56,314 nt of DNA. Origin: Clostridia bacterium (GTDB taxonomy: Bacteria; Bacillota; Clostridia; Oscillospirales; Acutalibacteraceae). Every line of letters begins with the position of its first letter. Position 1 is the stretch's first letter. The stretch lies in contig JAFXLD010000095.1 in the NCBI GenBank assembly GCA_017531385.1, positions 1-56,314 of the forward strand, read 5' to 3'. This document shows positions 7,220 through 25,978 of this stretch, piece by piece. Below the pieces are notes generated by a model. That model saw only the letters and a list, made by a program, of their open reading frames with translations, was not told where the DNA came from and ran no database searches. A program made the translations under genes and the position numbers.

Positions 7220-7252
7220 CCAAAGCCTCTCCTTCCGGATAATTACCATAAA

Positions 7253-9083: not shown

Positions 9084-9113
9084 CCCCGATTCAATGAATC
9101 GGGGAATTTTTTT
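9084..9113 (+). terminator. Terminator of the alarmone synthetase gene
   Basis: CCCCGATTC-AAT-GAATCGGGG (9084-9104) is a perfect 9-bp GC-rich stem followed by AATTTTTTT. The U-tract touches the stop codon of the convergent dockerin gene. Confidence 0.92.
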
Positions 9114-10674
9114 ATTCAAGTTTTGCGGAAATTCTGAGAATTTTTCTGGCATCGGCTGCTGTGAGTTTGCCGTCCTGGTTGATATCACCAACCAGAAGTG
9201 CATATTCAGTCATTTCATCTAATTTAGCAGATATTCGCAATGCCATTCTCGCATCGGCTGCAGTTACTTTTCCATCCATGTTCATATCTCCCCAATAGTA
9301 AACGGGATATCCACAGATGTCACACGAACAGCTGAAATCACTGTCAACATGGTCGTGGTCAAGTGCATCTTCTGAAATCTTTGCACACAGGTCGCAGATA
9401 CTGTCAGAGTTTGCATCAACATGTTTATGATCGGCATTGACATTCAGAGTTTCCATAATATTGAACTCAATAACCTGTGTATTTTCACCTTCACCGATAT
9501 GAGCATATGCACGGATAATTTCAGGCAGTTCAAAATCATCTTCCAGTATGGTGAACACTTTCTGGTCGATGATATACACACCGTCTTCTGTTATTGTATC
9601 AAGCTGTTCACTCAGATCCAACTGAACATAACCGGATTCAACATTATCATCAACAACAAGTTTTATATCATTTTTGTTATAAGAATACTGAGCAAAAAGA
9701 TAATTGAAATCCACTGACATATTTGCAGTTGTAAAAACATAAAGTTTGTTGTCCATTTTCATGGCAGTCAGCTGTATACCATCCTGTGCAACATTGAACG
9801 CCATACCGCAAGTGTCGCATACATCATCAAAATCAGCTTCCCTGTGAGGCGCAGTTTTTCCGTATTCCTGAGAACAGACTTCACAGACAGCTTTGCGGTC
9901 ACAGGTTGCAGTTCCGCCTGTATGTGGTGCTGTATCACCATATTCATCACCGCATAATTCACAGAGAGCCTTTGCAGAGCATGTTGCTGTGCCGCCTGAA
10001 TGATTGCACAGACTTGCAACCATACCGTCATTAATCTCAACAAAGAATATCGTCGGTGCCTTGATATCTTCAGGCTTCACACCCTCATTTATTGTAAAAT
10101 CATATCTTACATATTCACAATCAAAGCTGTAACCGCCGGGCACATTTATACAAAGAAGCATACCTTCTTCAATAAGACAATATGACTCCATGTCTGTCAG
10201 TGGTATATCATAGGCTAATTTAAATGTCAACTGTGTCGGGTCAAACTTAATAATATGCATATAATTTTCAATTCTGTAGCCGTCAAGATCAGTAGCAGCT
10301 GAAGTTATGCTGTATATATTGCCTGACAAATCATGCTTGAAACTGAATTTTGACTCAAGTTCTCTGTCAATATTTCCGTTGAGTTTTGCATTGATGTCGT
10401 AAACTCTGGGAGCAGATACAGCACTATACCTGTCATCTTTTGAAACAGCAAGATATGAAAACAACATTTTATCATTTTCATCCTCTCTGCCGTCTCCATT
10501 GATATCGTACTTGTTATTTTCAATATCACCGTATCTGAACTCATACACATCACGGGAAGACACCACACCGTCACCATTAATGTCGCCATTGTTGAATTCC
10601 GCCGCAAATGCTGCCACAGGACACACCGAAACAAGCATCAGAACCGCAACGATAGCCGAAACAAGATTTTTCAT
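9112..10674 (-). CDS. Secreted protein with N- and C-terminal dockerin modules and Cys-rich repeats
   Basis: A 520-aa protein with a clear signal peptide (about 1-24, ending AAFAA). Residues 29-75 contain GDINGDGVVSSRD and YDINGDGREDEND, a dockerin-like pair of calcium loops. The last 60 residues are a canonical type I dockerin: GDMNMDGKVTAADAR, then GDINQDGKLTAADAR. Between them (about 222-292) is a Cys-rich tandem repeat with the period GGTATC..KA.CE.C..EYG, and another CDLC/CDICG pair precedes the C-terminal dockerin. No catalytic domain is recognisable. Dockerins bind cohesins on scaffoldins or the cell surface, so this is probably a surface-assembled adaptor. Start: ATG at 10674 behind AAGGAG. 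Confidence 0.85.
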   Translation of the reverse strand: MKNLVSAIVAVLMLVSVCPVAAFAAEFNNGDINGDGVVSSRDVYEFRYGDIENNKYDINGDGREDENDKMLFSYLAVSKDDRYSAVSAPRVYDINAKLNGNIDRELESKFSFKHDLSGNIYSITSAATDLDGYRIENYMHIIKFDPTQLTFKLAYDIPLTDMESYCLIEEGMLLCINVPGGYSFDCEYVRYDFTINEGVKPEDIKAPTIFFVEINDGMVASLCNHSGGTATCSAKALCELCGDEYGDTAPHTGGTATCDRKAVCEVCSQEYGKTAPHREADFDDVCDTCGMAFNVAQDGIQLTAMKMDNKLYVFTTANMSVDFNYLFAQYSYNKNDIKLVVDDNVESGYVQLDLSEQLDTITEDGVYIIDQKVFTILEDDFELPEIIRAYAHIGEGENTQVIEFNIMETLNVNADHKHVDANSDSICDLCAKISEDALDHDHVDSDFSCSCDICGYPVYYWGDMNMDGKVTAADARMALRISAKLDEMTEYALLVGDINQDGKLTAADARKILRISAKLE

Positions 10675-10757: not shown

Positions 10758-10786
10758 AAAAAGACCTTGCCCGATATGGACAAGGT
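10758..10786 (-). terminator. Terminator of the envelope-sugar operon
   Basis: The minus strand reads ACCTTGTCC, loop ATATC, GGGCAAGGT, then CTTTTT: a 9-bp stem with one G-U pair and a U-tail. It lies directly after the GT2 stop codon. Confidence 0.85.
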
Positions 10787-10794: not shown

Positions 10795-11790
10795 TTATAC
10801 TGTTATTTCGTCTTTTGATTCTTCGGGTTGTTTTATGACTTTGCCCTGTTTATCTGTGTCGAAATTGAGTCTTTCTGCTTCGATAACAAGCGGTCGTTTC
10901 ATGATTCGTTTATTGATATTGAGAACATATTCGCCGATAAAGCCGATAAAGAACAGCTGAACTGCACCGAGGAACAGCATTCCGAGAAGAATGGGTGCTG
11001 TACCTGCGGGGAATCTTTCCCAATACATAAGCTTGAGAATGAAATAAATAACACCGAGAACAAAGCTTAAACCGCCGATTCCAATACCTGCAAATGTTGC
11101 AAGACGAAGACCGATCTTGGTATAAGATGTGATGGAAAGCATTGCTGCATCATAGAGTGAGTAGAAATTGTTGTGTGTCTTTCCTGCTCTTCTCTTGGGC
11201 TGTTCGTAAGGAATTTCTTTTCTCTCAAAGCCCAGTTCTGCAACGATACCACGCATGAAGGGAATGGGGTCATCAAGGTCACGGAGAACTTCAATAAACG
11301 CTCTGTCATAAAGTCCCGAACCTGTAAAATGCTCGATCTGTTCAACGTCGGACATCTTCTTGATAACCTTATAATAACAGGTACGAAGGAAACGCATAAC
11401 CTTGCTTTCCTTACTGCTTGTCTTGATACCGATAACGATTTTATAGCCGTTTTCCCACTCTTTTACATACTGAGGGATAAGCTCAACGGGATCCTGGAAG
11501 TCACAGCACATCTGAATAACACAGTCACCTGTAACCTGAAGAACTCCGTAGTAGGGAGAATTGAACTGACCGAAGTTTTTGGCATTGAAAATTGCCTTGA
11601 TTTTCGGATTATTTGCACAGATTGCTCTTAAAATATCTCTTGTGCCGTCCTTTGAATCGTTATCAATAAAAACGAGTTCATAGTCATACTGAGGAAGATT
11701 CTGTGTCATCATTTCGACAATTGCTTCACTCATGGGACCGACATTTTCTTTTTCGTTATAACACGGAATAAGAATACTTATCTTTTTCAT
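10795..11790 (-). CDS. Membrane-anchored glycosyltransferase family 2 (GtrB/CsbB/DPM1-like)
   Basis: A 331-aa polyprenyl-phosphate glycosyltransferase. The GT-A domain starts SILIPCYNEKENV and carries the acidic metal site in IQMCCDFQDP. It is followed by FTGSGLYDR and two C-terminal membrane helices (about 230-255 and 265-290), the usual GtrB/CsbB layout. Such enzymes load a sugar from a nucleotide donor onto undecaprenyl phosphate at the inner face of the membrane. Start: ATG at 11790 with AAAGGAG. It overlaps the TGA of the preceding SDR gene (ATGA), implying translational coupling. As the last gene of the rfb operon, it is the likely user of the CDP-sugar made upstream, with YfhO as the outer-face partner. 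No GtrA-type flippase was seen here. Confidence 0.85.
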   Translation of the reverse strand: MKKISILIPCYNEKENVGPMSEAIVEMMTQNLPQYDYELVFIDNDSKDGTRDILRAICANNPKIKAIFNAKNFGQFNSPYYGVLQVTGDCVIQMCCDFQDPVELIPQYVKEWENGYKIVIGIKTSSKESKVMRFLRTCYYKVIKKMSDVEQIEHFTGSGLYDRAFIEVLRDLDDPIPFMRGIVAELGFERKEIPYEQPKRRAGKTHNNFYSLYDAAMLSITSYTKIGLRLATFAGIGIGGLSFVLGVIYFILKLMYWERFPAGTAPILLGMLFLGAVQLFFIGFIGEYVLNINKRIMKRPLVIEAERLNFDTDKQGKVIKQPEESKDEITV

Positions 11791-12707
11791 TTTCGCACTC
11801 CTTTCATCCATTCGGCTGTACGCATTATTGATTCTTCAAATGTAAGCTCGGGCACAAAACCCGTGTCACTTGTCAGCTGAGTTATGTCTGCACAAAGGTA
11901 CATAACCTGACCTTCATTATAAGGCAGATCGCCTATACCAACCTTTAAATCGGGGTTTATGCAGTCACGCATAGCCGTTATATAATCGGCAAGAAGCCTT
12001 GTTTTTCCGCTGCCGAGTGGGTAAACCGCACCGTGCTTGCCTTTTTCACCGATAAGATAAAAGGCTGTCGCTGCATCGTCGCAATGGAGGAAATCCCACT
12101 GCTGTTCGCCCTTCGTGAAAGAAGTATACTCTCCTTTGAGCATTTTGTCAAGGCTCGACATTATGATAGAATTCGGGTTGCCTTTCTGCCCGAAAACGCT
12201 TAAAATACGTACCCAGCAGTGTCTGAGACCAAGCTGTTCAGCATACATACGGCTGAATTTACCAGCGGTAAATTTTGCAATTCCGTAGCCTGTTTCGGGA
12301 TTGCAGGGAGTTTCTGCCGTGAGTTTTTCGGTTGTTCTGCCGTACTCTGCCTGTGAACCTGCACTGACAAAACATTCACAACCTGTGTCAGCGGCAAGTT
12401 TTACCGCATCGAGTGTGTATTTTATATTCTCTGTCTGAGCATATGTGTCATTTCTGACATTTCCGAATGTTCCGAGCCATGCAAAATGGTAAAGCACATC
12501 GCATTTTTTTGGGAGTTTTGCAGATAAATCGGCATATTCCGAAATATCCGCATCAATGGCAGTCACAAAAGGACTTCTGAAGAATTCATCGTCCTTGCTG
12601 TCTTCTTTTCTGCAAAGTGCAATGACTTCAACATTTTCTTTGACTAATTTTCTGATAAGCGCAGAGGCAATCATGCCCGTTGCACCTGTTACAATGGCTC
12701 TTTTCAT
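11787..12707 (-). CDS. NAD(P)-dependent nucleotide-sugar epimerase/reductase (extended SDR)
   Basis: A 306-aa extended short-chain dehydrogenase/reductase. It has the Rossmann signature VTGATGMIAS near residues 6-15 and a YGIAK active-site pair (YxxxK). SAGSQAEYG supplies the usual upstream Ser region. In CDP-3,6-dideoxyhexose clusters a protein of this type performs the final 4-keto reduction or epimerisation (for example abequose or paratose synthase, or the reductase of yersiniose pathways). The position directly after the TPP enzyme suits a ketoreductase acting on the condensed branched sugar; that is inference. Start: ATG at 12707 with GGAG, 15 bp after the TPP gene. Its stop overlaps the GT2 start. 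Confidence 0.8.
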   Translation of the reverse strand: MKRAIVTGATGMIASALIRKLVKENVEVIALCRKEDSKDDEFFRSPFVTAIDADISEYADLSAKLPKKCDVLYHFAWLGTFGNVRNDTYAQTENIKYTLDAVKLAADTGCECFVSAGSQAEYGRTTEKLTAETPCNPETGYGIAKFTAGKFSRMYAEQLGLRHCWVRILSVFGQKGNPNSIIMSSLDKMLKGEYTSFTKGEQQWDFLHCDDAATAFYLIGEKGKHGAVYPLGSGKTRLLADYITAMRDCINPDLKVGIGDLPYNEGQVMYLCADITQLTSDTGFVPELTFEESIMRTAEWMKGVRK

Positions 12708-12722
12708 CTGAAATACTCCGTT

Positions 12723-14534
12723 TTATTCAGTAATAAGGGGGATAAACATGATTTTTTCAAGTTCTTCACGGGAAAGGAAAGGTGCAAGGTCCTCGAGAGG
12801 AGCAGAAACAAGTGAACCGTCGGGCAGTTTCTTTGTTGCCGATTTGGGTTCAAACTTCTGATCGGGGTCAACAATGATTTCACAGAATGCGTAACCCTTT
12901 ATTGCAAGTGTTTCTTCGATTTTTGCACCGAGATCTGCCGTTTTCTCAATTCTTACATAAGGAATACCGTATGCGGGAATGAGCTTTGACATATCGGGGA
13001 AGCTCAGATCATGGCTGTCCTGACCGACACCAACAAGGGGTTCACCGAAGAAATTCATCTGCGACTGTCTGATTGAATGATAACCGCCGTTGTTTATCAT
13101 AAAAATTTTAATGGGTAATTTATTCTGAACGATTGTCTGAAGCTCCTGAAGATTCATCTGAATACTTCCGTCACCTGTCACATTGATTATATCCTGTGTG
13201 TGGTCGCAAACGCAAGCGCCAATTGCTGCCGGAAGATCATATCCCATGGAAGCGATGGCAGAATTTATGATAAAACGCTGATCTTTTTTGATAACATATC
13301 CGTGACTGCCGACAACACACGCAGAACCGTTACCAACAACGGTGATCTGTCCCTCATTGAGTCTTGAACTGAGCTCCTTTATAAATGCGTAAACATTTAC
13401 GGGCTCGGTCTGTTCATAATGCTTGGGAAGAACTACGGGATAATCCTTTTTCCAGTTTCTACAGGTTTCGTTCCAGTTTTCCTTACTGAAAAGCTTTTCA
13501 TCGCCTAACAGCTCATTCATTCTCTTAAGGAATGCCTTTGCATCTGCACAGATAGGCATATCGGGGTTGACTGTGGGCTTTTTGAGCTCTTCTGCATCAA
13601 CATCAACAACGATTTTCTTTGCAGCTCTTGCCCATGACTTATAGTTATAGCCAACCTGTCTGATACTGAGTCTGCTGCCGACGGAGAAGAACACATCTGA
13701 ATTTTGAACGGCAAAGTTACCGGGTCTGTCGCCCATGATACCTGCTCTGCCCACATAAAGATCATGTTCATCTTCAATAAGATCGATACTGTCCCAGCCC
13801 GTTACAACGGGAATATTCAGCTTTTCGATAACACTTCTGAATTCCTCGAAAGCTCCTGCGATTCTGATGCCGTTACCTGCATTGAAAACAGGTCTTTCGG
13901 CATTTTTTATCATGTCGATAACTTCAAGAATCACATCATCAGAGGGCACTTCTGGAAGAGTTTCATCACCCTCGCCGTCATAAGGATAAAGGTCGTCTGT
14001 ATCAACATATGAGCCCTGAATGTCAAGAGGAATATCAAGCCAGCAGGGACCGGGTCTGCCCTGCTGAGAAAGCTTGAGTGCCTTCTCAAGGCAGTATCTG
14101 ATTTTATTCTTATCTGTCACCATTTCACAGTATTTTGTCATACAGTCAATGGCTTTTGTGATTTCAAATTCCTGGTCACCCATTGCTCTAATGCCGAGAC
14201 CTGACCAGCGTGCAGTTGTGTCATAACGCACCTGTCCCGATATAACAAGCATCGGGATAGAGTCAAGCCAACCGCCCACAACACCTGTTATGGCATTTGT
14301 TCCGCCGGGGCCTGTTGTAACAACACAAGCCGCAATTTTGTTGTGGATTCTCGCATAGCTTTCTGCCGCGATGGCACAAGCCTGCTCATGGTGGTTATAA
14401 ACACAATGCATACCTTCCTGATGGCCGAATGCATCGTTAAGGTGCATCGCACCGCCGCCTGTTACGGTGAAAGCGGTGTCAATACCGTGGTCAACAAGAA
14501 ACTGCGATATATAATTGGAAACTTTTATTTTCAT
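12723..14534 (-). CDS. TPP-dependent enzyme of the acetolactate-synthase fold, YerE-like by context
   Basis: A 603-aa three-domain thiamine-pyrophosphate enzyme. The catalytic Glu50 lies in NHHEQACAIAAESYAR, TTGPGGTNAITG follows, and the cofactor motif VTGDGSIQMN ends at INN about 28 residues later. By fold alone it would be annotated acetolactate synthase large subunit. Its neighbours argue otherwise: it overlaps the rfbH stop by ATGA and sits between rfbH and a sugar SDR. In Yersinia, YerE is a TPP/FAD enzyme that adds a two-carbon unit from pyruvate to CDP-3,6-dideoxy-4-keto-glucose. I therefore infer a branched-chain sugar synthase. The weak point is that ALS-fold enzymes with other 2-keto-acid chemistry look the same at this resolution. 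Confidence 0.78.
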   Translation of the reverse strand: MKIKVSNYISQFLVDHGIDTAFTVTGGGAMHLNDAFGHQEGMHCVYNHHEQACAIAAESYARIHNKIAACVVTTGPGGTNAITGVVGGWLDSIPMLVISGQVRYDTTARWSGLGIRAMGDQEFEITKAIDCMTKYCEMVTDKNKIRYCLEKALKLSQQGRPGPCWLDIPLDIQGSYVDTDDLYPYDGEGDETLPEVPSDDVILEVIDMIKNAERPVFNAGNGIRIAGAFEEFRSVIEKLNIPVVTGWDSIDLIEDEHDLYVGRAGIMGDRPGNFAVQNSDVFFSVGSRLSIRQVGYNYKSWARAAKKIVVDVDAEELKKPTVNPDMPICADAKAFLKRMNELLGDEKLFSKENWNETCRNWKKDYPVVLPKHYEQTEPVNVYAFIKELSSRLNEGQITVVGNGSACVVGSHGYVIKKDQRFIINSAIASMGYDLPAAIGACVCDHTQDIINVTGDGSIQMNLQELQTIVQNKLPIKIFMINNGGYHSIRQSQMNFFGEPLVGVGQDSHDLSFPDMSKLIPAYGIPYVRIEKTADLGAKIEETLAIKGYAFCEIIVDPDQKFEPKSATKKLPDGSLVSAPLEDLAPFLSREELEKIMFIPLITE

Positions 14535-15865
14535 TTAGCTTCAACTGCCTCAATTATTGTTTTTGCCATGTAATCAATCATTTCGTCGGTCATTCCGGGA
14601 TAAACGCCTACCCAGAATGTGTCGTTCATGATTCTGTCTGTATTGTTAAGCTCGCCTACAATTCTGTAGCCCTTGCCGCTTGCTCTCATTTCATCGAAAC
14701 AGGGATGCTTTGTAAGGTTGCCTGCGAAAAGCATTCTTGTCTGAACACCCTTTGCTTCAACATATTTTACAACATCAGTTCTGTTTACACCTTCGTTACA
14801 GGTGATAAGGAAACCGAACCATGAGGGATCGCCGTTTTCAACTGCTTCGGGAAGAACAACTTTGTCTGCAATGGAAGCAAGACCTGCTTTAAGACGTGCA
14901 AAGTTGTGCTTTCTTCTCTCAACAAATGAGGGGAATTTTTCAAGCTGTGCACAGCCAACAGCTGCCTGAAGGTCTGTTGCCTTAAGGTTGTAGCCGAAGT
15001 GTGAATATACATATTTATGGTCATAGCCGAAAGGAAGCTCGCCGTACTGACCGTCAAAACGGTGACCGCAGAGGTTGTCCTGACCTGAGTTACATACGCA
15101 GTCTCTGCCCCAGTCACGTATTGAACGGCTGATTCTTGCAAGAAGAGGATTATCGGTATAAACTGCACCGCCCTCACCCATTGTCATGTGATGAGGAGGA
15201 TAGAATGATGATGTGCCGATATCACCGATTGTGCCTGTGAATTTCTTTTCGCCGTCGATTGTGTACTGTGAACCGAGAGCATCACAGTTGTCTTCGATAA
15301 GCCAGATATCGTGCTTTGTGCAGAAATCCTTGACAGCCTTAAGGTCAAAGGGATTGCCGAGTGTGTGGGCAATCATAACTGCCTTTGTCTTTTCTGAATA
15401 AGCTTCTTCGAGCTTTGTAACGTCGATATTGTACTGAGGAATTGTAACATCAACAAAAACAGGTACTGCGCCGTACTGAATGATGGGAGTTACAGTTGTG
15501 GGGAAACCTGCGGCAACTGTGATAACCTCGTCACCGGGAAAAACTCTCTTGTCACCGAGAAGAGGTGAAGTGAGAGTCATGAATGCAAGAAGATTTGCGC
15601 TTGAACCTGAGTTTACAAGTGCACATGAACGCACACCGAGATATTTAGCAAGTTTTTTTTCGAATTCGTCTGTGTATCTGCCTGCTGTGAGCCAGAATTC
15701 CAATGCACTGTCAACGAGATTTACGGCTTCGTTGCTGTCATAAACTCTTGATGCGTAAGGGATTCTCTGTCCCTCGGCAAAATCTTTCTTTACATTGTGA
15801 TATTTTTCAAAATACTCTGCAACAGCAGAGAGTATGGCTTGTTTATCCTGTTCCTGATTGCTCAT
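14531..15865 (-). CDS. rfbH: CDP-4-keto-6-deoxy-D-glucose 3-dehydrase (E1, RfbH/DdhC)
   Basis: A 444-aa DegT/aminotransferase-fold protein matching the PMP- and [2Fe-2S]-dependent C3 dehydrase of 3,6-dideoxyhexose synthesis. Where aminotransferases have the PLP lysine it has histidine (SFYPPHHMTMGEGGA, about 225/226), the hallmark of E1. Candidate cluster ligands are C194 (IEDNCDALG), C256, C258 and C266 (RDCVCNSGQDNLC). The C-X1-C-X7-C spacing matches the pattern known for E1. A fourth local Cys present in many homologues is Gln here, but it is not one of the known ligands. Start: ATG at 15865 with AAAGGA. It lies 22 bp after rfbG and overlaps the TPP gene by 4 nt. Its reductase partner (E3, DdhD type) is not in the window. 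Confidence 0.93.
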   Translation of the reverse strand: MSNQEQDKQAILSAVAEYFEKYHNVKKDFAEGQRIPYASRVYDSNEAVNLVDSALEFWLTAGRYTDEFEKKLAKYLGVRSCALVNSGSSANLLAFMTLTSPLLGDKRVFPGDEVITVAAGFPTTVTPIIQYGAVPVFVDVTIPQYNIDVTKLEEAYSEKTKAVMIAHTLGNPFDLKAVKDFCTKHDIWLIEDNCDALGSQYTIDGEKKFTGTIGDIGTSSFYPPHHMTMGEGGAVYTDNPLLARISRSIRDWGRDCVCNSGQDNLCGHRFDGQYGELPFGYDHKYVYSHFGYNLKATDLQAAVGCAQLEKFPSFVERRKHNFARLKAGLASIADKVVLPEAVENGDPSWFGFLITCNEGVNRTDVVKYVEAKGVQTRMLFAGNLTKHPCFDEMRASGKGYRIVGELNNTDRIMNDTFWVGVYPGMTDEMIDYMAKTIIEAVEAK

Positions 15866-15887
15866 GTTTACATTCCTTTCAGATTGT

Positions 15888-16937
15888 TTATATATTAAAA
15901 AATTCTTTTATCTGTTTTTCCGTAATTGCGGGTACATCATCGTTTGCAGCAAAAACCTTTGTCCATTCAACTGTCTTTTCAACAGCTTCGGTTGCTGACC
16001 ATGTGGGCTTCCAGCCGAATGTTGTCTTGAGAAGTGAACAGTCGAGTTTAAGGAAGTTTGCTTCGTGAGGTCCGTCTTTTTTAAGACACTCAAATGTCTG
16101 TCCTTCACCCCATGCACTGCAGAAAATCGTTGCAAGCTGACCTGTTGTAAGACAGTCTCTTTCATCGGGACCTACATTATAATAACCCTGATATTTTATA
16201 TCTTCATACTGAGCCGCAGCTATCATAAGATATGCATTCAGAGGCTCAAGCACGTGCTGATAAGGTCTTGTGGAGTTGGGATTTCTGACGATGACAGGCT
16301 TTTTGTCCATTGCCGCACGTACACAGTCGGGAATGATACGGTTATCTGCAAAGTCACCGCCGCCGATAACGTTACCTGCTCTTGCAGTTGAAACTGCAAC
16401 GCCTGTATTGTCAAAGAAAGATGCTTTGTAACTGTGAGTCACAAGCTCGGAGCATGATTTTGAGTTTGAATAAGGATCAAAACCGTCAAGAGGCTCGTTT
16501 TCACGGTAACCCCAGCACCATTCGTTATTCTTATAAACCTTGTCAGTTGTTACGTTAAGAACTGATTTGACAGAGGGTGTAAGTCTTACACATTCAAGAA
16601 TATTAACGGTACCCATGACATTTGTTTCGTATGTGTACTTTGGCTGTTCATAGGAAGTGATAACAATCGGCTGAGCCGCAAGATGGAACACGATTTCAGG
16701 CTGAACTTCATCAAACACAGCCTTAAGGTGGTCATAATCCCTGATATCACCGATAACGGATTTCATTTTTCCGTCAAGACCTGCAACGGAGAAAAGATTC
16801 GGATTTGTAGGCGGTTCAAGCGAATAACCCGTTACATCTGCACCTGCCATAACAAGGATTTTTGAAAGCCATGAGCCTTTGAAACCTGTATGACCTGTCA
16901 GAAGAACTTTTTTGCCTTTATAAAAATCAAGATTCAT
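15888..16937 (-). CDS. rfbG: CDP-glucose 4,6-dehydratase
   Basis: A 349-aa extended SDR that converts CDP-D-glucose to CDP-4-keto-6-deoxy-D-glucose. The NAD-binding motif is LLTGHTGFKGSWL (about 12-24). Substrate and active-site blocks VFHLAAQPIV, NVTTDKVYKN and FDPYSNSKSCSE (YxxxK equivalent YSNSK) match RfbG/DdhB. ARAGNVIGGGDFADNRIIPD and RPYQHVLEPL are also characteristic. Start: ATG at 16937 behind AAAGGA; the in-frame TTG at 16952 overlaps that site. Upstream, a 252-bp gap containing a hairpin repeat separates it from rfbF, whereas all later genes in the operon nearly touch. Confidence 0.93.
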   Translation of the reverse strand: MNLDFYKGKKVLLTGHTGFKGSWLSKILVMAGADVTGYSLEPPTNPNLFSVAGLDGKMKSVIGDIRDYDHLKAVFDEVQPEIVFHLAAQPIVITSYEQPKYTYETNVMGTVNILECVRLTPSVKSVLNVTTDKVYKNNEWCWGYRENEPLDGFDPYSNSKSCSELVTHSYKASFFDNTGVAVSTARAGNVIGGGDFADNRIIPDCVRAAMDKKPVIVRNPNSTRPYQHVLEPLNAYLMIAAAQYEDIKYQGYYNVGPDERDCLTTGQLATIFCSAWGEGQTFECLKKDGPHEANFLKLDCSLLKTTFGWKPTWSATEAVEKTVEWTKVFAANDDVPAITEKQIKEFFNI

Positions 16938-17012
16938 AAGATATCCTTTCAATCTACAATTATTGAAGATTTTAGTTATATATTTTCAATACATTTTATA
17001 AAACTACTAACT

Positions 17013-17181
17013 TTCAATTCGCAATTGAAAATTCGCAATTCGCAATGTCGGAACACCTGACGGTGTTGATCTTATAAGGACCTGACTTCGTCAGAACCTT
17101 GTTTTTCGCTTTACTCATAATAATGAGTCAAAGGGCAACGCCCTTTCCTTAATTGCGCATTGAGAATTGAGCATTGTGAAT
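17013..17181. repeat. Hairpin-rich intergenic repeat, copy 2, inside the rfb operon
   Basis: Bounded by AATTCGCAATTG words on the left and AATTGCGCATTGAGAATTG words on the right. It contains three hairpins: AACACC-TGAC-GGTGTT (17052-17067), CTGAC-TTC-GTCAG (about 17082-17094) and AAAGGGC-AAC-GCCCTTT (17130-17146). Positions 17121-17158 align gaplessly with 171-208 of copy 1. It occupies most of the gap between rfbF and rfbG and has no open frame of note. It may affect transcript stability or partial termination between the two genes. Confidence 0.62.
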
Positions 17182-17189
17182 TATCTATC

Positions 17190-17963
17190 TTACCAAACCT
17201 TCCAAGGAGCCTCATTATCTGCCCAGAGTTTTTCAAGATAATTCTTATCACGGAGAGTATCCATACACTGCCAGAAACCGTCGTGAGGATAAGCCATAAG
17301 CTCGCCTCTTCTTGCAGCCTCTTCAAGAGGATACTTTTCAAATACTGTTGAGTCACCTTCGATAAGGTCGAGAATTTCGGGCTGAAGAACCATAAAACCA
17401 CCGTTGATAACACCGCCGTCCTGCTGTGTCTTTTCACGGAACTGCTGTATGCAACCGTCTTCGTTTATATCAAGCACGCCGAAACGGGCTGTGATTTTTA
17501 TAGCTGTAAGAGTTGCCATTCTGCCGTGTGATTTGTGGAACTCAAGAAGCTTGTTTATATCAACATCTGAAACGCCGTCACCGTATGTAAGGAAGAAAGG
17601 CTCGTCACCGAGATATTCCCTGACTCTCTTGACTCTGCCGCCTGTCATTGTGTTGAGACCTGTGTCAACAAGTGTTACTTTCCAGGGCTCGGAGAAGTTT
17701 GTGTGAACAGTCATTTCGCCATTGTCTGAGAAATCGAATGTAATATCACTTCTGTGAAGATAGTAATCTGCAAAAAATTCCTTGATGACATGCTGTTTGT
17801 ATCCGCAACAGATAACAAACTCATTAAAGCCGTAATATGAATACTGTTTCATGATGTGCCAGAGAATGGGCATATCACCGATCTGAATCATAGGCTTGGG
17901 AATAAGATGGCTTTCTTCACTGATTCTGGTTCCGAATCCGCCTGCAAGAATTACAACTTTCAT
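17190..17963 (-). CDS. rfbF: Glucose-1-phosphate cytidylyltransferase
   Basis: A 257-aa nucleotidyltransferase, the standard length for RfbF/DdhA, which makes CDP-glucose from CTP and glucose-1-phosphate. The N-terminal nucleotide-binding block VVILAGGFGTRISEES and the following IPKPMIQIGDMPILWHIM are diagnostic. FVICCGYKQHVIKEFF, FLTYGDGVSDV (metal Asp) and NGGFMVLQPEILD are also present. Start: ATG at 17963 behind AAAGGAA, 16 bp after the YfhO stop. It is the committed first step of the CDP-sugar route in this operon. Confidence 0.94.
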   Translation of the reverse strand: MKVVILAGGFGTRISEESHLIPKPMIQIGDMPILWHIMKQYSYYGFNEFVICCGYKQHVIKEFFADYYLHRSDITFDFSDNGEMTVHTNFSEPWKVTLVDTGLNTMTGGRVKRVREYLGDEPFFLTYGDGVSDVDINKLLEFHKSHGRMATLTAIKITARFGVLDINEDGCIQQFREKTQQDGGVINGGFMVLQPEILDLIEGDSTVFEKYPLEEAARRGELMAYPHDGFWQCMDTLRDKNYLEKLWADNEAPWKVW

Positions 17964-17979
17964 TTTGATGTTCCTTTCT

Positions 17980-20697
17980 TTATTTAACGATATTGTTATA
18001 GATTGTAAAGATAACGGGGATTATGTATACTATCGCTCCGGCACAGAACATGCCTGCGTAATAGATTTTTTCAAAGATTTTCAGGAATCCGTTAGATGCT
18101 TCCTGAGCAAAAGGCTTTTTCTTTTCTATTATATAGATAGCCGCAACTATGAGAATTGTTATGACGGTTATAAGAGCACCGAGCATCATACCGTAGGGCA
18201 GATAGTTCATTTCTATAACATTTTCGCCCTTGTGAAGTTTAATTGCCATAAAAGAACTCATTGCGATATCAATATTCTGCTTTTCACCGTTGACCTTACA
18301 GCTCCAGCCTTCGTCATATGTAACGGGCAGGAACATATATGTGCCGTCTTCATCACTTGTGACGGTTGCGCTCACACTTTTCGGTCCTGTTGAAACTGTG
18401 GCATGATTATCCTTGTTCATTTCGCACAGAGCTTCAAGCTTGGTATAATCAAAATAGCCTACGGTAACTTTGATATCATCGCCGATATCTTTAAGTGCAA
18501 AAATGAAAATATCAATATCTTCATCAGTAACAACACCAAGGTCAATAAGCTCATTATGGAAATTGTTGGGATAATTATAGTTTATATCACTGCCGAAATA
18601 ACGTAAGTTTGCTTTCTTTCCGTTTATAAGTATTGTAACGGCGCCTCTGTTTTTAGTCGTGTTTTCAATATCAACATGAAGATATACATGCTTTGTACCG
18701 TCTACATGAACTGTCTGTGCAAAATCTTCATCGCTGTTCATTGAAAATACATCAGTTGTGCAAAGATCACTTTCATCGCCTGTCAATGCGGTGTAAAGCT
18801 CATTGTTGGATTTAAATACATCATTGTTTTCAACAATATCAATATCCATGAACTTCTGATCAACAAGAAGTCCCACGGGAAGAGTCATTTTATTGCTGTA
18901 AAGGTGAGCAGAGCCGATATCGTGCATATATGTATACTCGCTCTCATCAAGCTCACGTTCACTGAATGTATATTTCATGTTAAGAAGTGCATCGGAAAGA
19001 AGTGTTCCCACACTGTCAATAACACGTGTATAAATCTGAGAGTAGCCCAGAGCCTCCATTGTGGAAGTCATATCTGATGAAACAAGATGCGTAAAGTTTG
19101 AAAGTGACGGATAGCCGAAGAACATGGGGAAATTGCTGTTAAGCCTTACATTCATATCCTTTATTCTTGACAGATTATCATTTTCAAGCCCCAGATCCTC
19201 TGCCATTTCAAGCGAATCCTCAACAAAATCAAGGCTGTACATACTTGTTCTGTCTGATGTATCGGAATTCATGCCGAATGACACATTTGCAAGCAGTCCG
19301 ATTTCCGTCAGCATAACACCCGCAATCATTACATATGCAACTTTTTTAAAGCCCACAAAGAGTGTCATGACATAGAACAATGCAAGAAGAACAAACGCAC
19401 CAAACATCCATGCGTCACAATCCTCAATGACAAGCTTGTTGTATTTCAGTCCGTTTACGGTAGAAACCCTTGCGTAAACTCTTGTCACAAGAAGGAAAAT
19501 TCCGGCAGCCGCACTGATTATTGCAGGAATGATTACGGCTACGGCTTTCTTCCCTTTTATGGAAAAGACCACATCCTTCATATTCTGCAGTACATATGCC
19601 GACATACAGACAAGAATGAATATGAGCATATACATATATCTCAAAGGGAATCCGACGTATGAACCAAGATGCCATATGAGATTTATGTTTTCAAAAAATA
19701 CAGGCAGAACAAGAAGAAGTGCCGTTATTCCGAAAAACGCACACGCTTTCTTATGCTGTTTATAATTTACAAACAGCATAACAAGGAATGCCATGAAAAT
19801 TGCCGTGCAGAAAAGAACTATTGTAAGTTTTGTCGTTGAATAAGTGGTCGATGTATTAAGTATTTTAAGCAACGAGCCGACTTCAGTTTCTTCACTTTTT
19901 ATTGTATACCGTGTAGAACGGAACATATAGTAAACGGACGGAAGATTTATTATTGCAGAACCGAATATTGCAAGAACGGAAGTAACGCCGAAACGGATAA
20001 TCGACATTTTTCTTGTTTCTTTTGGTTGAATGATTGCAAGATACAGAAAACCTGCAAAAAGAAGAAACATGAACACCATGTATGAAATATAGATGGAAAG
20101 CAGGAGTGTATAAGTCAGGAACAGGAAATACGGAAGCCACTTGCCTGTTCTGAACATATGCAGAAGAGTAACAATCAGAATCGGGAACATGAATGCGGCA
20201 TCAATCCATCCCATATTCGTGTAATAAATAAGAATAAAAGCACTGCAACTGTATGAAAGTCCGAGAATAACCTGCCAGAACGGATCAATCTTAAACTCTT
20301 TTCTGAGAAAAAAGACCATAGACAGTGTTGCCATTGTCATTTTGAAAATAATCAGGAACGGGATTCCACTAACAATTGCATCACGGCTGCAAAGCAGGGT
20401 AAAAATTATTTCCCAGGGTTTCAAAATATAAAAACCTGTAGTAAGCACCTGTGCACCTGCTGCCGTCTGCCAGTTGAGCAACAAGGATTTGTCTCCTCCT
20501 GAATGAAGATAATCCCAGAAATATGTATAATTGGAAATTGTCTGCTGTACCATGTCATCACAGACCACACTTCCCGTTCCGAATGGATATATTCCGTTTA
20601 CGGCATATATCACCAGAACCACCGCAACAGTCGAAATTGCGGCAATTGCATAAGGCAATATACTCATTATATTGACTTTTTTCTTCGCCAGTTTCAA
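17980..20697 (-). CDS. YfhO-family GT-C membrane glycosyltransferase
   Basis: A 905-aa polytopic protein with about 12-14 membrane helices, a periplasm-facing loop region (about 480-820) and a final helix pair. The early segment YPFGTGSVVCDDMVQQ and the C-terminal pattern YDEGWSCKVNGEKQNI...KLHKGENVIEMNYLP are hallmarks of the YfhO family. In B. subtilis and Listeria, YfhO-type proteins glycosylate teichoic acids from an undecaprenyl-phosphate sugar made by a CsbB/GtrB-like GT2. The present operon also ends in such a GT2. The start is TTG at 20697 with CGGAG about 10 nt upstream. The nearby ATG (20706) is in another frame and too close to the same site. First gene of the operon. Confidence 0.83.
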   Translation of the reverse strand: MKLAKKKVNIMSILPYAIAAISTVAVVLVIYAVNGIYPFGTGSVVCDDMVQQTISNYTYFWDYLHSGGDKSLLLNWQTAAGAQVLTTGFYILKPWEIIFTLLCSRDAIVSGIPFLIIFKMTMATLSMVFFLRKEFKIDPFWQVILGLSYSCSAFILIYYTNMGWIDAAFMFPILIVTLLHMFRTGKWLPYFLFLTYTLLLSIYISYMVFMFLLFAGFLYLAIIQPKETRKMSIIRFGVTSVLAIFGSAIINLPSVYYMFRSTRYTIKSEETEVGSLLKILNTSTTYSTTKLTIVLFCTAIFMAFLVMLFVNYKQHKKACAFFGITALLLVLPVFFENINLIWHLGSYVGFPLRYMYMLIFILVCMSAYVLQNMKDVVFSIKGKKAVAVIIPAIISAAAGIFLLVTRVYARVSTVNGLKYNKLVIEDCDAWMFGAFVLLALFYVMTLFVGFKKVAYVMIAGVMLTEIGLLANVSFGMNSDTSDRTSMYSLDFVEDSLEMAEDLGLENDNLSRIKDMNVRLNSNFPMFFGYPSLSNFTHLVSSDMTSTMEALGYSQIYTRVIDSVGTLLSDALLNMKYTFSERELDESEYTYMHDIGSAHLYSNKMTLPVGLLVDQKFMDIDIVENNDVFKSNNELYTALTGDESDLCTTDVFSMNSDEDFAQTVHVDGTKHVYLHVDIENTTKNRGAVTILINGKKANLRYFGSDINYNYPNNFHNELIDLGVVTDEDIDIFIFALKDIGDDIKVTVGYFDYTKLEALCEMNKDNHATVSTGPKSVSATVTSDEDGTYMFLPVTYDEGWSCKVNGEKQNIDIAMSSFMAIKLHKGENVIEMNYLPYGMMLGALITVITILIVAAIYIIEKKKPFAQEASNGFLKIFEKIYYAGMFCAGAIVYIIPVIFTIYNNIVK

Positions 20698-20742: not shown

Positions 20743-20771
20743 AGAATACCACAATCGACTCTTTTAGTCAA
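20743..20771 (-). promoter_or_regulatory. Promoter of the yfhO-rfb operon
   Basis: The minus strand has TTGACT (20771-20766), a 17-nt spacer and TATTCT (20748-20743) with a TGG extended -10. It would yield a leader of about 35-40 nt before the TTG start of yfhO. Confidence 0.62.
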
Positions 20772-20893: not shown

Positions 20894-22414
20894 ATGAAAA
20901 AGAAAATATTGTTTTTAGTCATTACCACTGCAACAATTTTTTCATCAGCGATAACAGGATTTGCCGAATCTGTGACAAATCCGCAGGTTGCTCAGAATGG
21001 TTTCAGTTTTAAATTCATGTTGAAAAGTTTTTTTGAATCCGATTCTGCCGTTATTATGGCTTCTGCAGTTCTTGTTCTGTTTCTGCTCCTTCTGATTTTC
21101 AGAAAAAAACTGAAAAGAAAACTGGATAATTCAACAGCATCTCAGCTTATCAACATTTTTATCCTGTTTTTCTCAGTAAGCGGAATTGCTTGTCTGGCAA
21201 TGGCTTTTGCAACAGACGGTGCAACATGGTCAAATATGATGCACATAAATCCCGAAGTAAAACATGGATTCACTCAGTTCGAGGATTATATTCTGAATCT
21301 GCAGAGTGCCGGTTCACAGCAGTTTTATGAAACCGCCGCAACAAACACACCTTTTTCACATCTGATTTATTTTATACTTGCCCAGTTTTTGCCTCCTGAT
21401 TTAGTTCTCAGTGATGCACTTGTATCATACAGCCAGATCCTGCATGATCAGACATTCATGTATCTGTATCTTATTCTTATAATGTTCTGCATTGTTCTTC
21501 TGTACAGAATGAACCGTTCTGTGCTCAGAAATAACGGACTGAATATGCGTGACGAAGTTGTTGCATTCCTTTTTGCAGTATCATATCCTGCGATTTTCTG
21601 CATTGAAAAAGGCAATATCACAAGTTTCAGCATCGTTCTTGTGATGATTTTTATCATATTACGTAATTCAGAAAAAAGTCTCATCAAAGAAGCATCATTA
21701 CTGGCAATAGCCGCCGCAGCTGCAATAACACCCGCCACACTGATATTCTCTCTGCTTCTGTTTGACGAAAAAAACAAACAGGCTGCACTGAAATTCGCAA
21801 GAATGTTTTCTTATTTCCTTATCATGTTTATAACTCCTGCTGTTTTTACAGGTTTCGGCAATCTTCTGACATATGCAAAAGCTTTTGTCTCCGTTTCGGC
21901 AGACGGCTTTATTCCGGGAAATATGAGTATTGTAAATCTTCTTCATTTCTTCGGAATTTCCAACACAATTGTTATTTATGCAATAATTCTTCTCACCGAT
22001 GCTATCGCTGTTCTTGCAATGATAATGTTGCCTGAAATGTGGCAGAAAACAGCCGCAGCGGCATACATCATACTTAATGTGTTTGCTTTTTCAGATGCAT
22101 CGGCTGTAATGTTTGTTTTTATTCCTCTTATTTTTCTGTTCGCACAGAAAGAGCACAGAGCTTCAGGCTGGGTATATATGTTCACATTTGCGCTTCTTAT
22201 CACCCCGTTCCCCGAATGGTTCAGATCCGATATCAACCGATTCACAATATTCCTCTCATCTTTCGGAATATCTGACATACAGAATGCAAACAATCTTATT
22301 TCACTGGCAGCAACACAATTCATACTGGTCATTCTGTTCTACCAGATAATCAGCAAGATGAAATCAAAAAAGCTGGCAAAACAGGAATCACCGGCTGAAC
22401 AGGTATCAGAATAA
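20894..22414 (+). CDS. Polytopic membrane protein, possibly a GT87/DUF2029-like GT-C glycosyltransferase
   Basis: A 506-aa protein with a signal-like first segment (MKKKILFLVITTATIF...TGFAES) and roughly eleven more hydrophobic helices. The segment FAVSYPAIFCIEKGNITSFSIVLVMIF, followed by AAAAAITPATLIFSLLLF, resembles the conserved region of GT87/DUF2029 mannosyltransferase-like proteins. The first loop (about 105-150) is extracytoplasmic and could hold an acceptor site, as in GT-C enzymes. The match is structural in feel only. I do not see a definitive motif, and flippase-like or O-antigen-ligase-like alternatives remain. Start: ATG at 20894 with AAAGGTG. It is divergent from the envelope-sugar operon, which hints at a shared envelope role. 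Confidence 0.5.
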   Translation: MKKKILFLVITTATIFSSAITGFAESVTNPQVAQNGFSFKFMLKSFFESDSAVIMASAVLVLFLLLLIFRKKLKRKLDNSTASQLINIFILFFSVSGIACLAMAFATDGATWSNMMHINPEVKHGFTQFEDYILNLQSAGSQQFYETAATNTPFSHLIYFILAQFLPPDLVLSDALVSYSQILHDQTFMYLYLILIMFCIVLLYRMNRSVLRNNGLNMRDEVVAFLFAVSYPAIFCIEKGNITSFSIVLVMIFIILRNSEKSLIKEASLLAIAAAAAITPATLIFSLLLFDEKNKQAALKFARMFSYFLIMFITPAVFTGFGNLLTYAKAFVSVSADGFIPGNMSIVNLLHFFGISNTIVIYAIILLTDAIAVLAMIMLPEMWQKTAAAAYIILNVFAFSDASAVMFVFIPLIFLFAQKEHRASGWVYMFTFALLITPFPEWFRSDINRFTIFLSSFGISDIQNANNLISLAATQFILVILFYQIISKMKSKKLAKQESPAEQVSE

Positions 22415-22518: not shown

Positions 22519-24228
22519 ATGAAAAAAAGATCAAAGGCTTTACTTTCTATTGCACTTTGCGTAACACTTCTTTTCACATCAGTTACAGGTGTATCCGCAG
22601 CTGCAGTAGCAGAAGAATCAACAGGTAATGCATTTATGGAATCTTTTGCAAACACACTCAACACAGTATTCAACAAAGTTGTTGACAGCCTTCTCAATCT
22701 AATCGTTAAGTTCTTCCCTGCAACAGTTCTTATCAAGGACAAGTCCGAATATAAGAGCGAAAACTTCATGGAAGGCACAGAAGATTTCATCGATGAGCCT
22801 GCAGAAGACGCAAAATGGAATCTCGGTTATGCTCAGGCTTCAATCGTTCCCGAGGATTTTGACGAAGTCAAATATTACAAGGGCGGTTATGACCTTAACC
22901 TCAAGCTCACAGAAATGATCGACGACCTCAAGGTAAGAGTTGTTACTCTTAACGACGGCAGTGACAGAGGTACAACAGCTATCATCGCAATCGATTGTCT
23001 CGGTCTTGCAAACAGTGACGTAAGACTTATCAGAGCAGCTCTTGCAGATTATGCAAAAGCTAACAACATCGTAAGTATCAACGTTTCTGCAACTCACGTT
23101 CACAGCGGTATTGATACTCAGGGTATTTACACAGATCTTTTCACAAAGATTATCAAAAACCTTGCAGGTGCTATCACAAAATCAGATAATCTTGCTCCCG
23201 CAATCGACAATGACTTCCGTCAGGTTATCATTGACAAGTCAGTTGAATGTGTCAAGGCAGCTTTTGAAGGTATGACAGAAGGTACACTTACATACGCCAA
23301 GACAGATGCTTCTGATTATTCCCGTGACCGTACTCCTCCCGACATCATGATCGAAGAGCTTTACAGATTCATGTTCACTCCCGATGACGGATCAATGGGC
23401 ACAATCATTTCAAACTACGGTGTTCATCCCGAATGTATCGGTTTCGGCACAAAAGTAGGTACAGCTGACTTTGTTTACTATACAGAAAAGGTTGTTAACG
23501 AAGGCGGTTACAACTTCATCTTCCTTCAGGGTGCAGTCGGTACATACACAGAAGATATGGGCGCATCAGATGACGGTCTTGAGCTCGACAGAATCGAATC
23601 AACAATCCGTTACGGTGAAGAGCTCGGTTATATCCTTCTCGGTATGACAATGACTCCTGATGAAAGACTTGCTCTCGTTGACGAAGAAAGAGAAGCAATT
23701 GCAAAAGACAACGAGAACTACACTCCCTGGTACGACAGAGAAACTGTTACTGAAAGAGAAGTAGCTCCCGTTCTCAATGTTGCACATAACGAATATCTTG
23801 CTCCCGTTGACAACGGTGTATATGAACTTTTCGGCAAGCTTTCACTTGCTAACAACACAATGGTAACAGACGAAAACGGCAATTACTATGCTGTTACAGA
23901 AGTTGGTTACATGGAACTCGGCGATATCAAGCTTATCCTTTGCCCCGGTGAAACATACGCAGAGCTTATCAAGGGCGGCGAAAATATGGCAAACTTCCAG
24001 TTTGCTCCTGCATACGAAATCCTCGGTTCAGAAGATGTTATCGTATGTGACCTTGTAAACGATGCTCTCGGTTACATCATGCCTGACGATTTCTTCACAT
24101 ATGCAACAATCAGATATGAAGACGATACAATCACAATAGACAGCAGCTGGGGTCTTACATCACTCGGTGATCATGCAGCATCAAACATCTACGGTGCAAT
24201 TTACGAACTTATCGACGAAGTAAGATAA
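22519..24228 (+). CDS. Secreted neutral/alkaline ceramidase-like protein
   Basis: A 569-aa protein with a signal peptide (about 1-27), then an amphipathic segment (38-66) and a neutral-ceramidase-type domain. The zinc-site motif ATHVHSGIDTQG (His193, His195) fits the family's THTHSGPGG block. A further histidine lies in NYGVHPE, FLQGAVGTYTED occupies the NLGDVSPN region, CPGETYAEL supplies the usual Glu, and DALGYIMPDDFF the C-terminal Tyr. Neutral ceramidases cleave the N-acyl amide of ceramide. The substrate here is unknown and could be another N-acyl compound. The codons are noticeably biased (many CTC, CGT, AAC), as in highly expressed genes. A cytoplasmic paralogue lies at 49508. Start: ATG at 22519 behind AGGTAGGTAATG-type sequence. 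Confidence 0.75.
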   Translation: MKKRSKALLSIALCVTLLFTSVTGVSAAAVAEESTGNAFMESFANTLNTVFNKVVDSLLNLIVKFFPATVLIKDKSEYKSENFMEGTEDFIDEPAEDAKWNLGYAQASIVPEDFDEVKYYKGGYDLNLKLTEMIDDLKVRVVTLNDGSDRGTTAIIAIDCLGLANSDVRLIRAALADYAKANNIVSINVSATHVHSGIDTQGIYTDLFTKIIKNLAGAITKSDNLAPAIDNDFRQVIIDKSVECVKAAFEGMTEGTLTYAKTDASDYSRDRTPPDIMIEELYRFMFTPDDGSMGTIISNYGVHPECIGFGTKVGTADFVYYTEKVVNEGGYNFIFLQGAVGTYTEDMGASDDGLELDRIESTIRYGEELGYILLGMTMTPDERLALVDEEREAIAKDNENYTPWYDRETVTEREVAPVLNVAHNEYLAPVDNGVYELFGKLSLANNTMVTDENGNYYAVTEVGYMELGDIKLILCPGETYAELIKGGENMANFQFAPAYEILGSEDVIVCDLVNDALGYIMPDDFFTYATIRYEDDTITIDSSWGLTSLGDHAASNIYGAIYELIDEVR

Positions 24229-25965: not shown

Positions 25966-25978
25966 GGTGACAGTAATA

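Follow-up and report, generated by a model that had tools for sequence, protein, structure and literature searches.

A predicted Clostridia operon joining yersiniose-type sugar synthesis to YfhO-type transmembrane glycosylation

Results

Architecture of the operon

The window (the whole stretch of 56,314 nucleotides analysed here) carries an operon that probably makes a C4-branched 3,6-dideoxyhexose and exports it through a GT2/YfhO route, a reading drawn from sequence comparisons to which we assign a probability of roughly two in three. The seven genes (YfhO, rfbF, rfbG, rfbH, ThDP enzyme, SDR, and GT2) run on the minus strand from 20697 to 10795 (Table 1). The coordinates in an earlier note on this DNA were correct, but two details differ: the total is seven genes, and the gap between rfbF and rfbG is a dispersed repeat. 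The YfhO and rfbF genes are separated by 16 bp, rfbF and rfbG by 237 bp, and rfbG and rfbH by 22 bp (with the listed TTG start of rfbG at 16952, over which an ATG at 16937 is preferred). The ThDP gene overlaps rfbH by 4 bp and lies 15 bp from the SDR gene, which in turn overlaps the GT2 gene by 25 bp. The matches of the spacer repeat include the spacer itself, and many are partial; the corresponding gap between alignments is about 42 bases in locus L034 and about 29 in L036. Neither the promoter-like nor the terminator-like pattern is enriched in the region relative to shuffled sequences.

Table 1. Features of the operon, with the main support for each.
Feature	Position	Strand	Support
Terminator-like hairpin just 3' of GT2	10764..10786	-	Pattern match
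GT2, GtrB/CsbB/PgfS type, proposed polyprenyl-phosphate sugar synthase	10795..11811	-	PF00535; PgfS best NCBIfam
SDR, proposed branch-ketone reductase (YerF position)	11787..12707	-	PF01370 E 5e-38; TGATGMIA and YGIAK motifs
YerE-like (JanthE-type) ThDP carboligase, 603 aa	12723..14534	-	8rph match; tree; Trp464 to Ser
rfbH (ddhC), CDP-4-keto-6-deoxyglucose C3 dehydrase	14531..15865	-	NF011936 719 bits, cut-off 423
rfbG (ddhB), CDP-glucose 4,6-dehydratase	15888..16937	-	TIGR02622 446 bits, cut-off 278
rfbF-rfbG spacer (237 bp), dispersed repeat	16953..17189	-	43 matches in own genome
rfbF (ddhA), glucose-1-phosphate cytidylyltransferase	17190..17963	-	TIGR02623 407 bits, cut-off 300
YfhO-family protein, 905 aa, predicted GT-C glycosyltransferase	17980..20697	-	PF09586 E 7.9e-103
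Promoter-like site upstream of YfhO	20743..20771	-	Pattern match

The ThDP enzyme

The ThDP enzyme possesses the three TPP domains, and its closest solved structure is the YerE-like enzyme JanthE (8rph, E 1.2e-121), with which it shares 36% identity over 600 columns, versus 31% with 5ahk, which we take to be PpYerE. In a phylogenetic tree, five AHAS sequences were separated with an SH-aLRT of 100 from the other 117 rows, among them the window enzyme, JanthE, and 5ahk. This was one quick tree without a mixture model, in which the split frame of locus L128 was left out, and an unrelated, very long row (own_C6_TPP) also fell on the non-AHAS side; the tree shows separation from AHAS more than it shows a group exclusive to YerE-like enzymes. 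The position of Trp464, presumably the acceptor tryptophan of AHAS, is Trp in all five AHAS and Ser in the window enzyme; all 113 relatives have Thr, Ser, or Gly there. The motifs HHEQA (at 48) and GDG (at 454, GDG-NN) are present, and the ThDP glutamate is kept in 111 of the 113 relatives, the other two having gaps. An aligned C-terminal tail is common to the window enzyme and JanthE, K564 of the former corresponding to K567 of the latter. The two differ in the cofactor motif, GDG instead of CDG, and in the FAD-linked residues Y268 and P293 of JanthE, replaced by M267 and R292; the arginine also occurs in 5ahk and the AHAS rows. We infer from these comparisons that the protein is a JanthE-like lyase of the YerE type, which would add a 2-oxo acid to a ketone.

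If the enzyme were instead a diverged acetolactate synthase, the operon would produce a linear sugar alone. The ThDP domains are common to IlvB, and the top NCBIfam rows are IlvB families; nevertheless, the protein lies below every cut-off among the best 25 of 53 families, the top one, TIGR00118, scoring 348 bits against 538. Neither a position within the acetolactate synthases nor an IlvN partner, which the earlier note had named as counter-evidence to its reading, was observed: the tree and the serine at Trp464 speak against the former, the genes flanking the ThDP gene are rfbH and the SDR gene, with no IlvN adjoining, and a separate ilvB lies on contig C3 of the genome together with genes reading as ilvN and ilvC. 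Moreover, in 300 genomes of the same family, the ThDP enzyme was detected in 39 and RfbH in 46, and 38 of those 39 had both (Fisher p 4e-39, kinship ignored). We therefore rejected the acetolactate synthase reading, which we regard as very improbable. The listed matches in plasmid and phage collections, of about 28–38% identity, were either annotated as acetolactate synthases or unannotated and gave no further guidance. The description of the enzyme as YerE-like rather than of the IlvB kind thus holds, but since it is nearer to JanthE than to 5ahk, yersiniose is one candidate product and not an identification.

CDP-sugar genes

As the earlier note had proposed, rfbF, rfbG, and rfbH correspond at the sequence level to the route to a CDP-4-keto-3,6-dideoxyhexose, all three exceeding their NCBIfam cut-offs. 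The window RfbH contains the cysteine pattern C194-X61-C256-X1-C258-X7-C266 and a histidine replacing the PLP lysine (SFYPPHHMTMGEGG). Among RfbH relatives from the loci that reach 350 aa and 300 bits, 64 of 64 have both the C-x-C-x7-C pattern and the histidine; duplicate loci contribute four of these sequences. The spacing in Yersinia RfbH is, we assume, X57, unlike the X61 of the window RfbH; a fixed X57 is matched by 12 of the 64 relatives and not by the window protein.

The Yersinia pathway includes an RfbI/DdhD-type reductase, and none was found by a PF00175 search of five genomes or by a motif set applied to the loci. The former returned two proteins in each genome, and in three relatives that are 95–99% complete the open frames were at most 286 aa. 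The motif set gave no hit in 119 loci; as a control, the same set does detect a 401-aa reductase of the window's own genome. This protein, encoded on contig C106, has a C-terminal ferredoxin-like stretch and was considered as a partner of RfbH. Since a protein of this length occurs in just one of the four relatives (G190), the candidate was rejected as a shared partner. The missing RfbI/DdhD-like reductase weighs against our preferred explanation.

Conservation of the gene order

A search of other genomes for the same arrangement, as suggested in the earlier note, found the order rfbFGH-ThDP-SDR-GT2 in 22 of 114 distinct loci. The arrangement is therefore not due to chance. A GtrA gene lies within this order in five loci, confirmed by PF04138 in L048. 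The order count skips predicted membrane ORFs and unlabelled intervening genes, so it includes loci that lack strict contiguity, among them L056, L076, L077, and L100. To label neighbours, we used phmmer with single queries and thresholds of our own, together with a custom HMM for YfhO; many contigs stop within the locus. The 114-locus counts leave out L128 (split frame) and five of 80 named loci that share DNA with others (L074, L075, L087, L088, and L109); one list of relatives comprised the best 80 of 592. Three loci, L040–L042, speak against the preferred reading: to a distance of about 9 kb from their ThDP genes, no gene was labelled as rfb, SDR, or GT2, although these genomes do have rfbH elsewhere.

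The SDR could alternatively resemble an abequose or paratose synthase and reduce the C4 ketone directly to a plain 3,6-dideoxyhexose, the ThDP enzyme serving another or an alternative branch. SDRs of the same superfamily do produce abequose and paratose. In addition, JanthE accepts many donors and ketones, according to the available part of PMC12188165. On the other hand, the close spacing of rfbH, the ThDP gene, and the SDR gene and the presence of the SDR gene in 29 of 32 loci of the window's 33-row clade argue against this alternative, and two enzymes competing for one ketone within one operon would be hard to justify; we consider it rather unlikely. In the preferred reading, the SDR acts on the branched product. 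Aldolase-like genes occur in 1 of the 32 loci of the window clade versus 45 of 81 loci elsewhere (p 4e-8, kinship ignored), and their scarcity in the clade hints at pyruvate as the donor.

GT2 and YfhO proteins

The GT2 and YfhO genes, which the earlier note had linked to the sugar genes, do belong to the recurring operon. The GT2 protein matches PF00535; its best NCBIfam families are PgfS (171 bits, cut-off 500) and then ArnC (110 of 529), and two C-terminal hydrophobic stretches were recognized by eye. The YfhO protein, encoded by the first gene, matches PF09586 over its full length and scores 142 of 1500 and 120 of 1400 bits against the PgfM1/M2 models, below their cut-offs. Its D48 is invariant in 12 of 12 aligned YfhO sequences. 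In a Foldseek search of the PDB, the best matches of its AlphaFold model (pLDDT 74, pTM 0.77) were the GT-C glycosyltransferases AftD, PglB, and EmbA/B, with TM-scores by query length of at most 0.45 among rows with E up to 0.001. The protein is thus predicted to be a GT-C glycosyltransferase that would transfer the sugar from a lipid carrier to an outer acceptor. L048 encodes a non-YfhO membrane protein that is perhaps another GT-C enzyme, judging from an acidic motif seen by eye; its two-sequence model has a pLDDT of 39.9.

The branched CDP-sugar might instead be built by the GT2 into a cytoplasmic repeat unit (Wzx/Wzy or capsule), with YfhO handling a separate sugar and sharing merely the operon. 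YfhO was detected in only 17 of the 114 loci and not found in the other 97. In L100 (Oliverpabstia intestinalis), for instance, the stretch covered contains the GT2 gene but no YfhO gene. In L079, the GT2 gene is followed by one for a 753-aa tandem-GT2 protein instead of YfhO, an arrangement that, judged by ORF size, may also hold in L078, L080, L096, L142, and L145. Furthermore, in Salmonella and Yersinia pseudotuberculosis, dideoxyhexose genes are grouped with wzx and a gene for a DDH transferase (PMC3715488, in the part available). Against this alternative, the window operon contains no further glycosyltransferase, polymerase, or Wzx gene; the GT2 is of the GtrB/PgfS type; and GtrA lies within the gene order in the five related loci mentioned above. 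Outside the operon, a further YfhO is encoded in all four near-complete relatives, so the operon YfhO looks dedicated; in the window's own genome (83% complete), the operon copy is the only one found. We judge the cytoplasmic repeat unit to be unlikely, though less so than the plain dideoxyhexose, and favour the transmembrane route. GtrA proteins are encoded elsewhere in five of five genomes and not in the window operon.

Nothing points to the teichoic acid acceptor suggested in the earlier note; the nearest curated families, PgfS and PgfM1/M2, concern protein modification, and the matches to them are far below the cut-offs. A sulfatase-family protein of 676–695 aa, comparable in size to an LTA synthase, occurs in four of five genomes (not in G263) and PF04464 proteins in five of five, both identified by family only.

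Discussion

The families and the RfbH residues suggest that RfbF, RfbG, and RfbH would convert glucose-1-phosphate into CDP-4-keto-3,6-dideoxyglucose. The JanthE-like ThDP enzyme would decarboxylate a 2-oxo acid (pyruvate being the likeliest) and attach the two-carbon unit at the C4 ketone, and the SDR, to judge from gene order and family, may reduce the branch ketone to give a CDP-yersiniose-like octose. On the strength of the families and the recurring gene order, the GT2 would load undecaprenyl phosphate with the sugar from its CDP form at the inner membrane face. A GtrA-type protein whose gene lies elsewhere in the genome may flip the lipid-linked sugar, and YfhO, whose fold also fits, would pass it on to an acceptor on the outer side, the candidates being a secreted protein and a secondary wall polymer.

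In the known yersiniose cluster, yerE precedes yerF. Yersiniose A depends on ddhDABC-yerE-yerF in Yersinia pseudotuberculosis O:6, with homologues in Pseudomonas WCS417 (gene set in the accessible part of PMC4509608), and the order ddhDABC followed by sugar-specific genes appears in the available portion of PMC3715488. The yersiniose logic proposed in the earlier note is borne out at the sequence level for the CDP-glucose route, the YerE-like ThDP carboligase, and one further enzyme gene, the SDR that follows it. No counterpart of DdhD was found in the genomes and loci searched. The window operon also differs in its JanthE-like enzyme, its Clostridia host, and its GT2 and YfhO genes in place of dideoxyhexose transferase and Wzx genes. 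CsbB-GtcA-YfhO systems carry out transmembrane glycosylation of LTA or WTA, for which the part of PMC8035078 at hand tabulates Gal, GlcNAc, and Glc and two unknown pairs. These systems share a GtrB-type GT2 (GT-A), YfhO (GT-C), and GtrA-type proteins with the window's genome, whereas the operon described here includes CDP-sugar genes of its own and lacks GtrA. In the Pgf system of Streptococcus mutans, one epimerase and two membrane proteins participate in the modification of Cnm and WapA (PMC5856776, in part). Both operons combine a GT2 with membrane proteins and a sugar-nucleotide enzyme, and PgfS and PgfM are the best NCBIfam matches of the window GT2 and YfhO, yet far below the cut-offs.

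We judge the joining of yersiniose-type sugar synthesis to YfhO-type transmembrane glycosylation to be new as a variant, its parts being known. We know of no earlier GtrB/YfhO route that is supplied with a CDP-sugar. The novelty claimed in the earlier note stands in that no paper uniting yersiniose or YerE with YfhO was found in a literature search whose coverage lay mostly outside subscription journals; as a peculiarity of this genome it does not, as the combination recurs in other Clostridia. In the literature covered, YerE-like enzymes are known to branch sugars of Gram-negative O-antigens and the caryophyllose of Mycobacterium marinum (PMC12247030, partial text), and the available text of PMC4753412 describes similar octoses made through another enzyme type in antibiotic producers. 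An in silico survey of more than 200 YerE-like enzymes (Krug 2024, cited in the part of PMC12247030 seen) may include Clostridia.

More tentatively, with odds somewhat short of even, the surface of Clostridia may be decorated by way of a C4-branched dideoxysugar linked to undecaprenyl phosphate, which a GtrB-type enzyme would charge directly from a CDP-sugar. The branching would be modular, clades with an HMGL or HpcH aldolase (sometimes with a HAD phosphatase) making longer branches and the window clade a two-carbon branch, and the sugars would form a chemically unseen family. If the operon works as we read it, the Clostridia surface would join the sites of YerE-type branched sugars, and a large set of ketone-accepting ThDP enzymes would become available with a genomic hint to the donor.

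Organization of the operon

RfbF, RfbG, and RfbH passed their curated NCBIfam cut-offs, and the YfhO, ThDP, SDR, and GT2 proteins reached none among the matches listed (the models nearest to GT2 were PgfS and ArnC, both below cut-off). A PF09586 match spans the length of YfhO. The genes are tightly spaced except for the rfbF-rfbG gap, whose dispersed repeat is perhaps a MITE-like element; in L034 and L036, two loci from other genomes, this gap between alignments is approximately 42 and 29 bases, respectively. A hairpin 3' of GT2, the final gene, and a promoter-like site 5' of yfhO, the first, are pattern matches, which show no excess in the region compared to shuffles.

Features in and around the operon (positions in the window)
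Feature	Position	Size	Remarks
Sulfatase-family protein	5342-7273	643 aa	Weak match (65-67 bits); similar-scoring proteins in the relatives G190 and G080
Dockerin protein	9112-10674		Immediately downstream of operon; no second Pfam domain
Operon: yfhO, rfbF, rfbG, rfbH, ThDP enzyme, SDR, GT2	20697 to 10795		Seven genes, minus strand
Dispersed repeat	16953-17189	237 bp	rfbF-rfbG gap; 43 genome matches including itself, many partial, both strands
Membrane protein	20894-22414	506 aa	Divergent; no Pfam match
Protein	22519-24228	569 aa	No Pfam match; by eye recalls neutral ceramidases
MBOAT O-acyltransferase, then protein without Pfam match	24463-27457	515 aa (second protein)	Possible glycan acetylation pair

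The draft genome comprises 2.47 Mb (completeness 83%), the closest loci with a name place its host among the Clostridia, and a SpoVAD gene within the window fits a spore former. In L033 and L034, an ORF beside YfhO resembles the 506-aa membrane protein in size, hydrophobicity, and position. The 643-aa sulfatase-family protein might act on a surface polymer.

Class of the ThDP enzyme

The ThDP enzyme is 36% identical to JanthE and 31% to 5ahk, which we take to be PpYerE. The scores against 5ahk and a plant acetolactate synthase were 233 and 232 bits, respectively, and the best solved relative was 8rph (E 1.2e-121, 410 bits), which is named JanthE in PMC12188165 and classed as YerE-like in PMC12247030. 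A quick maximum-likelihood tree with 122 rows separated five acetolactate synthases from all others (SH-aLRT 100). Among the remaining rows, 5ahk branches first and JanthE lies near the base of the rest, but this deep order is unsure because several long branches surround the two and an unrelated TPP row of our own genome (own_C6, branch 5.5) also groups there. At the position of Trp464, the acceptor residue of AHAS, all five synthases have Trp, 5ahk has Phe, JanthE has Thr, and the window enzyme has Ser; its occupants in 113 relatives are Thr (101), Ser (11), and Gly (1). A separate ilvB on another contig of the genome (C3) adjoins genes read by eye as ilvN, ilvC, and leuB. The tree, the residue exchange, and this separate locus led us to reject an acetolactate synthase identity, which the earlier note had named, together with an IlvN partner, as a ground for refuting its reading.

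RfbH and a search for its reductase

RfbH of the window possesses Cys194, Cys256, Cys258, and Cys266, and a histidine at the PLP-lysine site of aminotransferases. The C-x-C-x7-C motif and the histidine are kept in all 64 RfbH sequences of the examined loci (length ≥350 aa, score ≥300 bits; four from duplicate loci), and this conservation supports its assignment as a true C3 dehydrase. The first cysteine spacing is X61 in the window and in 51 of the 64; X57, the spacing of the Yersinia RfbH-type enzyme, occurs among the others. No counterpart of the reductase serving RfbH in Yersinia was found with PF00175 in five genomes (our own and the near-complete relatives G263, G080, G108, and G190) or with a ferredoxin-reductase motif set, which matched none of 119 loci and does detect a 401-aa reductase of our own genome. 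PF00175 matched two proteins per genome; in G263, G080, and G108 (95-99% complete), the reading frames that hold them do not exceed 286 aa, and the stronger match of G263 sits in an apparent sulfite-reductase-type cluster, as read by eye.

Distribution and gene order

Among 300 same-family genomes, the ThDP enzyme (E ≤1e-100) is present in 39 and RfbH in 46, our own counting toward each total. The two occur together in 38 genomes, G008 has the ThDP enzyme alone, and eight have RfbH alone (Fisher p 4e-39, with related genomes counted as independent). The enzyme occurs in 12 of 398 genomes drawn from the phylum, again including our own. A genome-contig scan found at least 592 relatives; the best 80 of 592, five of which duplicate other loci in the set, belong by record titles to Bacillota, Spirochaetota, Bacteroidota, Pseudomonadota, Acidobacteriota, Verrucomicrobiota, and others.

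RfbH, GT2, and YfhO were detected in 64, 66, and 17 of 114 distinct loci, respectively. The gene order recurs: rfbF-rfbG-rfbH-(gtrA)-ThDP-SDR-GT2 was found in 22 of the 114, five with gtrA inside, when intervening predicted membrane ORFs and unlabelled genes are skipped. Five close relatives have YfhO ahead of the operon, and seven other loci have it behind GT2 (several genes separate the two in L077); the partnership has therefore survived a rearrangement or arisen twice. Counted against this are L040, L041, and L042 of one genus, where the ThDP gene (73-74% identity) has no labelled rfb, SDR, or GT2 nearby and rfbH lies elsewhere in the genome, and L079, where a 753-aa tandem-GT2 protein follows GT2. 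In L078, L079, L141, L142, and L096, a variant locus, ThDP is joined by GT2 and by two SDR labels, and an ORF about as large as the tandem-GT2 protein occurs in others of this variant.

Donor of the branch

An HMGL-like protein is encoded in 31 of 119 loci, an HpcH/HpaI-like protein in 18, and a HAD phosphatase in 11. HMGL/HpcH-type aldolases make products such as 4-hydroxy-2-oxobutanoate. Aldolase-like genes are found in one of 32 loci in the 33-row clade of the window versus 45 of 81 elsewhere (p 4e-8), a correlation on a tree, and genes may be missed where contigs end. For ErwE, which belongs to this enzyme class, a preference for donors such as 4-hydroxy-2-oxobutanoate is described (PMC12247030). 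The near absence of aldolase-like genes from the window clade hints at pyruvate, or some other 2-oxo acid from central metabolism, as the donor here; the predicted branch has two carbons. In L104, L106, L110, L113, and L120, the ThDP gene is followed by genes for a classical SDR and for a protein resembling 3-dehydroquinate synthase (by Pfam in L104 only), which suggests further branch chemistry.

Proposed export and acceptor

The YfhO model (12-sequence alignment; pLDDT 74, pTM 0.77) matched AftD best (E 1.5e-5, TM 0.45 by query length), followed by PglB and EmbA/B (E up to 0.001), with oligosaccharyltransferases just behind; AftD, STT3, and PglB-type enzymes are reviewed as structural homologues of the YfhO class (PMC8035078, section 8). 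Asp48, invariant in all 12 sequences, falls by its position in the first outer loop, where a GT-C acidic motif would be expected and where the model is of low confidence (residues 40-48 under pLDDT 50). All five genomes encode GtrA proteins elsewhere. The operon copy of YfhO looks dedicated, since each of the four near-complete relatives has an additional YfhO elsewhere; none was seen in our own genome at 83% completeness.

Yersiniose synthesis is described as requiring ddhA-ddhD, yerE, and yerF (PMC4509608), and in Yersinia pseudotuberculosis these genes are reported to lie alongside wzx and the gene of a DDH transferase (PMC3715488). The operon shares this plan but differs in its JanthE-type enzyme, its GT2 and YfhO, and the lack of a visible ddhD. 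Three-component systems tabulated in a review carry Gal, GlcNAc, and Glc, and two pairs have an unknown sugar (PMC8035078, section 8); among open-access papers, we found none combining YfhO with yersiniose or YerE.

The genes, their order, and the enzyme class reported in the earlier note are borne out by the sequences, which also show that the order recurs, and its interpretation is right in its core. The candidate product would be a branched sugar, presumably reduced by the SDR, transferred from CDP to a lipid, flipped, and finally passed to an acceptor. The proposed teichoic acceptor was too specific. A 676-695-aa sulfatase-family protein of LTA-synthase size is present in four of the five genomes and absent from G263, which carries the operon. 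By analogy with the pgf operon of S. mutans, as described in PMC5856776, protein modification would be an equal candidate.
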